A DNA stretch of 64,000 nt from an uncultured Flavobacteriales bacterium (lineage in GTDB: Bacteria; Bacteroidota; Bacteroidia; Flavobacteriales_G; Salibacteraceae): positions 1 through 64,000 of the forward strand of contig CALCCE010000094.1 of assembly GCA_937899835.1 (NCBI GenBank), given 5' to 3'. Position numbers and translations under genes: made by a program. This document shows, one piece after another, positions 60,339 through 64,000 of this stretch. The number at the start of each line of letters is the position of its first letter. Within the stretch, counting starts at the first letter, position 1. The notes beneath the pieces are model-generated. The model was not told where the DNA came from, made no database searches, and worked only from the letters and a program-made list of their open reading frames with translations.

Positions 60339-60378
60339 AGTGAATTTCGTTCCTTGGATGCCCTCTAACCTCTCCCTC

Positions 60379-63300
60379 ATGATTCGACTGCTGCTATTGG
60401 CAACCGGCCTGTTGTTGTGCTTCGCCCTTACTGCCCAAGATTTCGATGCTCCTAAAGCCACTACTGTTCCTTACTACGACACGCTCTTTGGTGAGGTGTT
60501 TCCCGATCCTTACCGGTGGATAACCAACAAGGAAGACCCGGAGGTGATGAACTATCTTTACGCTGAAAATGCGTATGCGGACCGTACCTTACAATCAACG
60601 GAAATCCTGCAAAAAAACCTCTATGAGGAAATAAAAGGCTATTCGCGGGAACGCTTTTCGTCACTGCCTACCAGGCGCGACAGTTTTTATTACTACAACC
60701 GGTACGACAAGCACTCGAACTACCCGATTATCGCGCGCAAAAAAGACAGCCTGACTGCCGAGGAAGAAATTGTGCTTGATGGAAACAAACTGGCAAAGGG
60801 TCAATCTTATTTCGTTCTGCAATTTGTGTCGGTCAGCTTTGACCATCAGTTGGTGGCCTACGGGCGCAACCAATACGGCGGAGATGCTGGTGACTTGCGC
60901 ATCAAAGACATTGTGGGCGACAGCTTACTCCCCGACAAGATACCTGGTGTTGGTGGCGTGGTTTGGGCCAAAGACAACAAGACTTTGTTCTATATTTTCG
61001 AAGACCCCAAAACCAAACGTGCCAACCGTATTTTTAGGCACCGCATTGGCACTCCGAAAGAAGCGGATGTATTGGTTTATGAGGAAAAGCGACCGGGGTA
61101 TTTTCCCTCCATTGGCCTGTCAGATTCGCGAGACTACATTTTGTTGATGTCCAGCAGTTTCGTAGACAGCAAGGTATGGGTGTTGCCTTCCGATCAACCG
61201 GAAGCTGCTTTTCAGCCTTTTGGCAACAAACTGCCTAAGGCCATGTATCAGTTAGACCATACGGCTGGCAACGAATGGACTTTACTCACCGACTTCAAGG
61301 CGCCTAACTATCGGGTAGTGCGGCTGACTTCACTCCAACAACCGACTGAAGATTGGAAAAATATTGTGACCGTACACGACAGTTCTTTTTTGCAGGATTT
61401 TCGAATGCTGAAGGATTACCAAATCACCCATATACTGGAGAAAGGCACACCGGTGATGCGAGTGCTCAATCGCAGCAACGATTCGAGCTTTGTACTTCCT
61501 TTTCCTGATGGGCCCTTCTCAGTGAGCCTGTTGGGTTCTTCCGATTATCAGGACAGCGTTATCCGCTACAGCTATACTTCGATGGTAGTACCGAGTCAGG
61601 TGCACGAATACAACCTCCGCACCGGGCACGACACCATCATCCGAAAAACCGAAGTGAAAGGCTACAAGGCCCGCAACTTTGAGAGTAAAAGGGTGTGGGC
61701 ACCCTCGCGAGACGGCAAACGGATTGCGGTGGACTTGCTGTATAAAAAAGGGTTCAAACCCAACGGAAGTCACCCTGTGATGATGAACGCCTACGGCAGC
61801 TACGGCAACAACATAGACCCCAGTTTCACGGTGAGTCGCCTGGGCTACCTCGAACGCGGTTTTGTAATCGCTATACCCCACGTGCGGGGCGAAAGCTTTT
61901 TGGGTGTTGGCTGGCACGATGACGGAAAGTTGCTTAATAAGCAGAATACGTTTAATGATGTAGTGGATGCTACCGAGTACCTTATCGCTCAAGGGTATGC
62001 CGATCCCTCTCGGATCGCCTTGCAAGGGGGAAGTGCCGGAGGGTTATTGGTGGGAGCGGTGATCAACGACCGGCCCGACCTCTACTGTGCTGCCATTGCC
62101 AATGCGCCTTTTGTAGATGTGTTTTTCGACATGCACGACGAGGATTGGCCCAACATTGTGGCCCATTACGATGAAATTGGAAATCCGAAAATTCGGGAAT
62201 ACCACGACTACCTGTTGTCTTACTGCCCTTATCACAACTTGAAAGCACAGGATTATCCACACGTGCTGGTAACCAACGGCCTCAACGACAGTCGGGTACC
62301 CTATTGGGCCCCGGCCAAATGGGTAGCCAAGATGCGCACCTTGAAAACCGATTCGAACTTGTTGTTGCTCAAGACCGATATGTCGGGAGGGCATTTTGGT
62401 GCTTCTGGTCGCTACGAGCGTTGGAAGGAAACGGCCCAGGAAATGGCCTTTGTTTTTCAGGCGATGGGCATTCGTGAAAACTACCTGGTGGTCAGCGGAA
62501 AAGTGTTGGATGTCAACAAGGAGCCTTTGCCTTACGTAAATGTGTTTTTGGAAGGTTCTACCAAGGGCACGACCACCAACTACGATGGAGAATTTGCGCT
62601 TGAAGTAAAAGAGGATAAGCTGAATGACCTGGTGTTGCAATATGTGGGCTACGAAAAAAAGTCATTGCCTTTGTCCATCGACATGGAACTCACGGGCCTG
62701 GAGATCACTTTGGAGTCGGAAGATATTCAGCTGCCCCAATTCACCGTTTCGGCGAAGGCCAAAGACCCGGCGTATGGTATCATCAAAAACGCCATTGCCC
62801 GTCGGAAATACTACCTGGACCAGGTAGGTGCTTATTCTACCGACCTATATATGAAAGGAGCCACCCGACTGAATGAGATACCCGATAAACTGCCTCCGTT
62901 TTTAAGTGTAGAAGATCTGCCGGATTCCAACGACCTTGGCTTGATCTACCTTTCTGAGTCGGTTACCCGACTGCACAACCGAAAACCAACGGATAGAAAA
63001 GAGGAAATGATCGCTTCCAAAGTAGCCGGGCAAAGCGCTGGATTTAGCTGGAACCGGGCCTCGGATGTCTTGTTCAATTTCTACGAAAACCGGATTAAGC
63101 TGCGCGATGTTTCGGAGCGGGATTTTGTATCGCCTATTTCGTCGGGAGCCTTACTGTACTACAAGTATTCTTTGGTGGGCACTTTCCGTGAAAACGGCAA
63201 GACCATCAATAAGATCAAGGTCCTTCCACGCAGGAAAAGTGATCCTATTTTCCATGGACACATCTACATTGTAGAAGACGACTGGAACATTCACAGCCTG

Positions 63301-64000
63301 GATGTTTTTCTCACGAAAGATGCGCAAATCGAGTTTGTGGATACCATTCATATTGCTCAGGCTTACCTCGAAATGCAAGACAGTATTTGGATGCCTTTCT
63401 CCCTGAAAATCAGTTATGAATACAAGGTGTTTGGTTTCGATGCCACTTATCGGGCAATGGGTGTATTTTCCAACTACCGCATTAACCGCAGTTTCCCGGA
63501 GAAGTTTTTTAGAAACGAAATTTTCCGAATCGAGCGCGGAGCCAACCGCAAGGACAGCAACTATTGGGAAGTGGAACGCCCTTTGATCCTCACCGAAGAG
63601 GAGGTTTCCAGTTACCGTAGGAGCGATAGCCTGGAGCTACTTCAAAAATCTCCCGAATACCGCGACAGCGTTGATGCTCAGAGCAACCGCATTACGCTGG
63701 GCAAAGTGTTTTTGTCAGGCTATGATCATACCAACTCCATCGACAGCATTTATTGGGGCACCAACTCACTACTGGGTGCCTTGCAATACAACAATGTTGA
63801 AGGTGGAGTACTCAACGTGAAACCCTGGTTCTTCAAATGGCGCAAAGATGGATTCACCCGCTACAATGGCGCTTTTCGATACGGCGAAGCCAGTGAAAAA
63901 GCCTATGGAAAACTGCGGTGGCAACGGCAATTCAGCAATTTTAGTAAAGCACGATTGTCCATTACTGGTGGCCATTACATAGAACAAATAAACGGCGATC
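60379..64000 (+). CDS. S9A prolyl oligopeptidase fused to carboxypeptidase-regulatory and DUF5686 domains (partial, 3' end outside)
   Basis: One open frame of 1207 codons, no stop in the window. Signal peptide 1-20 (ALTAQ). Residues about 25-440 form the oligopeptidase B-like propeller (PDPYRWI; ARKKD; the Arg/Asp rich strands). The alpha/beta-hydrolase part has Ser552 (GGSAGG), Asp637 (NDSRVPYW) and His672 (GGHFG): an intact S9A triad. Directly after AMGIRENYLVV (695-705), without a new signal peptide, comes the carboxypeptidase regulatory-like domain (SGKVLDVNKEPLPYVNVFL, about 706-785), then DUF5686 (YGIIKNAIARRKYYLDQ, from about 799). DUF5686 is an outer-membrane beta-barrel family. An exported peptidase tethered to the outer membrane is the natural reading. 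Confidence 0.88.
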   Translation, partial: MIRLLLLATGLLLCFALTAQDFDAPKATTVPYYDTLFGEVFPDPYRWITNKEDPEVMNYLYAENAYADRTLQSTEILQKNLYEEIKGYSRERFSSLPTRRDSFYYYNRYDKHSNYPIIARKKDSLTAEEEIVLDGNKLAKGQSYFVLQFVSVSFDHQLVAYGRNQYGGDAGDLRIKDIVGDSLLPDKIPGVGGVVWAKDNKTLFYIFEDPKTKRANRIFRHRIGTPKEADVLVYEEKRPGYFPSIGLSDSRDYILLMSSSFVDSKVWVLPSDQPEAAFQPFGNKLPKAMYQLDHTAGNEWTLLTDFKAPNYRVVRLTSLQQPTEDWKNIVTVHDSSFLQDFRMLKDYQITHILEKGTPVMRVLNRSNDSSFVLPFPDGPFSVSLLGSSDYQDSVIRYSYTSMVVPSQVHEYNLRTGHDTIIRKTEVKGYKARNFESKRVWAPSRDGKRIAVDLLYKKGFKPNGSHPVMMNAYGSYGNNIDPSFTVSRLGYLERGFVIAIPHVRGESFLGVGWHDDGKLLNKQNTFNDVVDATEYLIAQGYADPSRIALQGGSAGGLLVGAVINDRPDLYCAAIANAPFVDVFFDMHDEDWPNIVAHYDEIGNPKIREYHDYLLSYCPYHNLKAQDYPHVLVTNGLNDSRVPYWAPAKWVAKMRTLKTDSNLLLLKTDMSGGHFGASGRYERWKETAQEMAFVFQAMGIRENYLVVSGKVLDVNKEPLPYVNVFLEGSTKGTTTNYDGEFALEVKEDKLNDLVLQYVGYEKKSLPLSIDMELTGLEITLESEDIQLPQFTVSAKAKDPAYGIIKNAIARRKYYLDQVGAYSTDLYMKGATRLNEIPDKLPPFLSVEDLPDSNDLGLIYLSESVTRLHNRKPTDRKEEMIASKVAGQSAGFSWNRASDVLFNFYENRIKLRDVSERDFVSPISSGALLYYKYSLVGTFRENGKTINKIKVLPRRKSDPIFHGHIYIVEDDWNIHSLDVFLTKDAQIEFVDTIHIAQAYLEMQDSIWMPFSLKISYEYKVFGFDATYRAMGVFSNYRINRSFPEKFFRNEIFRIERGANRKDSNYWEVERPLILTEEEVSSYRRSDSLELLQKSPEYRDSVDAQSNRITLGKVFLSGYDHTNSIDSIYWGTNSLLGALQYNNVEGGVLNVKPWFFKWRKDGFTRYNGAFRYGEASEKAYGKLRWQRQFSNFSKARLSITGGHYIEQINGD

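Follow-up and report, generated by a model that had tools for sequence, protein, structure and literature searches.

One open frame joins a peptidase to a complete DUF5686 protein

The window (the whole 64,000-nucleotide stretch of DNA analysed here) ends inside a long open frame that appears to join an S9A peptidase to a DUF5686 protein, raising the question of whether such a joint protein is real and, if so, what its peptidase cleaves and on which side of which membrane. No stop interrupts the frame between 60340/60379 and the end of the window, which cuts the gene. The contig (C94, 105,089 b) runs on beyond that point, and reading it further gave one open frame encoding 1505 amino acids, from the ATG at 60379 to a stop codon at window-equivalent 64896; translation might also begin at another ATG of this frame, at 60358. 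A reading made earlier from the sequence alone (hereafter the sequence-only reading) had proposed a signal peptide, an S9A peptidase with an intact Ser/Asp/His triad, and a regulatory-like domain leading into DUF5686, all in a single frame. The full-length gene bears this out, with the Pfam domains in that order:

60379..64000, continuing to 64896 equivalent (L003:380-4897), + strand: fusion gene, 1505 aa
60379..60438, + strand: signal-peptide-like N-terminus MIRLLLLATGLLLCFALTAQ, without a good lipobox, read by eye
60466..61647, + strand: Peptidase_S9_N beta-propeller, residues 30-423 (Pfam, 4e-88)
61822..62469, + strand: Peptidase_S9 catalytic domain, residues 482-697 (Pfam, 4e-58), with Ser552, Asp637 and His672, and His596 at the S1 position
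62470..62490, + strand: junction, residues 698-704, where the peptidase end passes directly into CarbopepD_reg; gapless in four fusions
62491..62748, + strand: CarbopepD_reg_2, residues 705-790 (Pfam, 3e-17)
62779..64000, + strand: DUF5686, residues 801 to the end, the presumed barrel part extending off the window (Pfam, 5e-132)

By eye, MIRLLLLATGLLLCFALTAQ followed by D resembles a type I signal. The part of DUF5686 inside the window scores 442 bits against a gathering cut-off of 39.2, and beyond position 64000 the domain is completed, ending in ...QFRLGLDLGF at 64893. DUF5686 proteins usually have their own signal peptide directly before CarbopepD_reg, as the sequence-only reading had stated, and every stand-alone one with a complete N-terminus proved signal-like by eye. 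In the fusion the peptidase occupies that place; no second signal peptide was found at the junction (...AMGIRENYLVVSGKV...), and no sharp break in GC or GC3 was found there. The statement that S9A peptidases are usually stand-alone also held, the other S9A relatives in the genomes examined being separate genes.

A DEAD-box helicase gene precedes the fusion on its strand, and a converging TPR/PD40 gene lies 7 bases beyond the fusion stop; no operon partners of the fusion are therefore obvious, and these neighbours offer no functional hint. The converging gene (L003:4904-7087) and the next on that opposite strand (L003:7196-10444) lie side by side and are related; both have TPR and PD40 repeats, and the latter also has an OmpA domain, a T9SS PorE-like organisation.

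The fusion is rare yet conserved

An even draw of genomes from the class yielded three, all of another order (G125, G089 and G317), that match the window's protein across the junction at 51-55% identity. Their frames are 1518, 1517 and 1098 codons long, respectively, that of G317 being cut by a contig end, and the DUF5686 profile (PF18939) is complete, 1-669, in the G125 and G089 fusions. The alignment of the four fusions is gapless at the junction ('MGIRENYLVVSGKV' and equivalents). Identity of the window's protein to the others is 48-53% in the catalytic domain, 27-31% in the propeller and 35-38% in the barrel. That two normally separate genes were joined by assembly error or loss of a stop codon, which the sequence-only reading had already thought a poor explanation, would fit the presence of the fusion in just one of the 42 genomes of the window's order; it is nevertheless extremely improbable, and is ruled out by the same gapless junction in these three independent assemblies, two of them with a GC content of 0.34-0.37 versus 0.48 here, and by DUF5686 parts that form one clade. 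We conclude that the fusion is a real protein, rare yet conserved.

In G294, a fourth genome of the order to which G125 belongs, a DUF5686 fragment falls in this clade and runs off a contig end. Its downstream neighbours are those of G125 (an aldehyde dehydrogenase, an FAD-dependent oxidoreductase and a UbiE-like methyltransferase), and this DUF5686 is probably also fused. Gene order beside the fusion is thus partly common to G125 and G317 upstream and to G125 and G294 downstream, indicating that the fusion was inherited within their order. In G125 and G317, dapF and the fusion are separated by a conserved small gene of about 171-173 codons (L068:6829-7347, L070:3300-3812); Pfam gave no match for the copy in G125.

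Elsewhere the fusion was scarce. Within the window's family (35 genomes) and order, only its own genome has it. With the top three candidates per genome scored, there was no fusion-level match in 398 genomes of the family that holds the nearest stand-alone DUF5686 proteins, a set with no positive-control genome, and no further fusion in a draw from the phylum or a second draw from the class. Adjacent but separate OpB (oligopeptidase B) and DUF5686 genes were not seen in the genomes whose coordinates were compared, where the matches were either widely separated or on separate contigs.

In the tree of DUF5686 sequences, those of the fusions group in a single clade (SH-aLRT 98); closest to them among stand-alone proteins are those of Saprospiraceae, which have signal peptides of their own. 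In a free tree of the S9 parts, the window copy sits on a long branch (1.17-1.27), beside rather than within the other fusions; a single clade of fusion S9 parts was not rejected (p-AU 0.36). One fusion event is the simplest reading of these trees. Contamination of the genome bin was rejected, the tetranucleotide composition of the contig matching that of the genome's other contigs. Since composition matches the fusion's own genome, and GC content (0.48-0.49) differs from that of two fusion-bearing relatives (0.34-0.37), recent transfer of the fusion is unlikely. The patchy spread may reflect old transfer or many losses.

An oligopeptidase B-type peptidase with a probably altered specificity

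The sequence-only reading had called the peptidase a prolyl oligopeptidase, which did not hold. Residues 24-693 score 498 bits against OpB of Serratia proteamaculans (SpOpB), compared with about 235 against prolyl endopeptidases (POP), and the window's S9 part groups with OpB, not POP, in the tree. By descent, as judged from score and tree, the peptidase belongs to the OpB subfamily. OpB enzymes are normally specific for Arg/Lys, a specificity that is not to be assumed here. P1 specificity of SpOpB is set by E576, to which the basic P1 residue binds (PMC9917282). This S1 glutamate is His596 in the window copy only: it is kept in all other OpB rows of the alignment, including the three other fusions and three proteins with the reverse domain order (described below), and POP rows have Trp at this position. 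Counting the S1 position, the window copy departs from all other rows at 19 sites that are otherwise invariant; any other of the 39 OpB rows has three such changes at most. A remodelled loop accompanies Glu596His. The triad is intact, with Ser552, Asp637 and His672 aligning with S532, D617 and H652 of SpOpB, as are the pocket residues Tyr472, Phe578 and Val640. Loss of the S1 glutamate and changes at 18 other invariant sites suggest that the specificity of the window copy is probably altered, and we infer that it no longer prefers Arg/Lys. The same genome encodes a second, canonical stand-alone OpB on another contig (L004:6229-8469, G000:C306), which has a lipoprotein-like N-terminus and adjoins a TonB-dependent receptor-like gene.

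Loss of activity is a serious rival to altered specificity. The S9 domain in the window's genome might be decaying, or repurposed for a non-peptidase role, with selection acting on the DUF5686 part; the 19 unique changes, the S1 substitution with its remodelled loop, the long branch and the presence of a canonical OpB in the same genome are all consistent with this. By contrast, the triad and the Tyr472/Phe578/Val640 pocket are intact, the frame is maintained across 700 codons, and the catalytic domain resembles the other fusions more closely than does the propeller or the barrel. On balance, we consider such decay or repurposing unlikely.

Predicted anchoring at the outer membrane

The explanation that we favour, with moderate confidence, is that an OpB-type peptidase is exported and covalently tethered at the outer membrane through a barrel, cleaving peptides on the periplasmic side. 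The N-terminal signal peptide would export the protein, the C-terminal DUF5686 segment would fold to a beta-barrel in the outer membrane, and the CarbopepD_reg domain, the DUF5686 N-terminal domain and the peptidase would remain facing the periplasm, with the peptidase cleaving short peptides near the barrel. The C-terminal residue is F in the window, G125 and G089 fusions, and amphipathic strands number 5.2 per 100 residues in the C-terminal part versus 3.9 in the rest, a weak contrast. An AlphaFold model of a stand-alone DUF5686 protein (L039, with L040 and the window part) had a pLDDT of 33.6, too low for a fold search, and a search of solved structures with the DUF5686 part as query matched the CarbopepD_reg domain of a SusC homologue alone.

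A different arrangement, in which the barrel would serve to display the peptidase at the cell surface, in the manner of type V secretion, for the digestion of extracellular peptides, seems quite unlikely. Type Vd autotransporters (patatin-like) consist of a signal peptide, an enzyme, a small periplasmic domain and a C-terminal barrel, an order that the fusion would resemble. However, CarbopepD_reg and the DUF5686 N-terminal domain normally come before the barrel with no passenger present, and Pfam gave no POTRA or Omp85 match. The peptidase is probably on the periplasmic face. The sequence-only reading had likewise placed it on the inner face of the outer membrane, and had suggested that it may trim peptides at a barrel or process a client of the barrel. 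Tethering of OpB is likely not new in this lineage: by eye, the N-terminus looks like that of a lipoprotein in roughly 20 of the 37 stand-alone OpB relatives and is signal-like, with no convincing lipobox, in the fusions, suggesting that the fusion replaced a predicted lipid anchor with a barrel anchor.

Peptidase and DUF5686 module also occur in reverse order

Among the long S9 frames checked, three proteins have the reverse order, with CarbopepD_reg_2, a middle domain and an OpB-like S9 peptidase, without a barrel:

L035:2774-6370 (G000:C281), in the same genome as the window
L036:6209-9694 (G025, C35), in a related genome
L037:4357-7746 (G025, C79), in that related genome

All have a signal-like N-terminus. 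Their middle domain has no Pfam name and matches the N-terminal part of DUF5686 (hhalign 95.7%, E 9e-9); reversed and eight shuffled controls gave less than 1%. Two of the three genes lie beside thiopeptide/lanthipeptide-type dehydratase genes, one of them also with a peptide-export ABC transporter gene, and the products of these two might be leader peptidases. Given the homology of the middle domain to the DUF5686 N-terminal part, OpB and the DUF5686 periplasmic module were apparently joined at least two times, in both orders. Where two domains have been fused more than once, they often act together, and on this ground a role of DUF5686 in handling peptides is a fair hypothesis. A broader proposal, which we put forward only tentatively and regard as doubtful, is that the two are functional partners: DUF5686 would handle peptides at the outer membrane, which OpB would trim or degrade, and their fusions, in either order and with or without the barrel, would have arisen independently. 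If true, this would be the first functional handle on DUF5686; against it, several genomes (G036, G043 and others) have DUF5686 without any close OpB.

Comparison with known systems

To our knowledge, DUF5686 is a Bacteroidota family without known function, and we found no papers naming it in the literature searched. PG0534 of P. gingivalis, predicted to be an outer-membrane barrel of 92 kDa, is required for T9SS function (PMC5445135); we liken it to DUF5686 by size and predicted location alone, and its membership of the family is a guess from size. Stand-alone DUF5686 proteins from Saprospiraceae MAGs (L039, L040) share CarbopepD_reg_2 and a complete DUF5686 domain with the fusion, at about 38% identity, and differ from it in their length of about 825-833 aa, their own signal peptide and the lack of a peptidase. 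In the reverse-order proteins, unlike the window's, the peptidase is C-terminal and there is no barrel. SpOpB (PDB 7ne4/7ywp) has the same propeller and alpha/beta-hydrolase, the same triad, and equivalents of the window's pocket residues in Tyr455, Phe558 and Val620; the window's protein differs in its signal peptide, its fusion to DUF5686 and the replacement of S1 Glu576 by His, and its 498 bits lie far below the NCBIfam OpB equivalog cut-off of 1313. With this fusion, S9A peptidases, mostly stand-alone in the genomes examined, gain a form that is likely anchored at the outer membrane, with the specificity pocket changed in this species. The conserved enzyme fusion and the reverse-order joining provide a testable lead for DUF5686, namely peptide processing at the outer membrane. 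Both families were already known; their fusion is real, rare and conserved.
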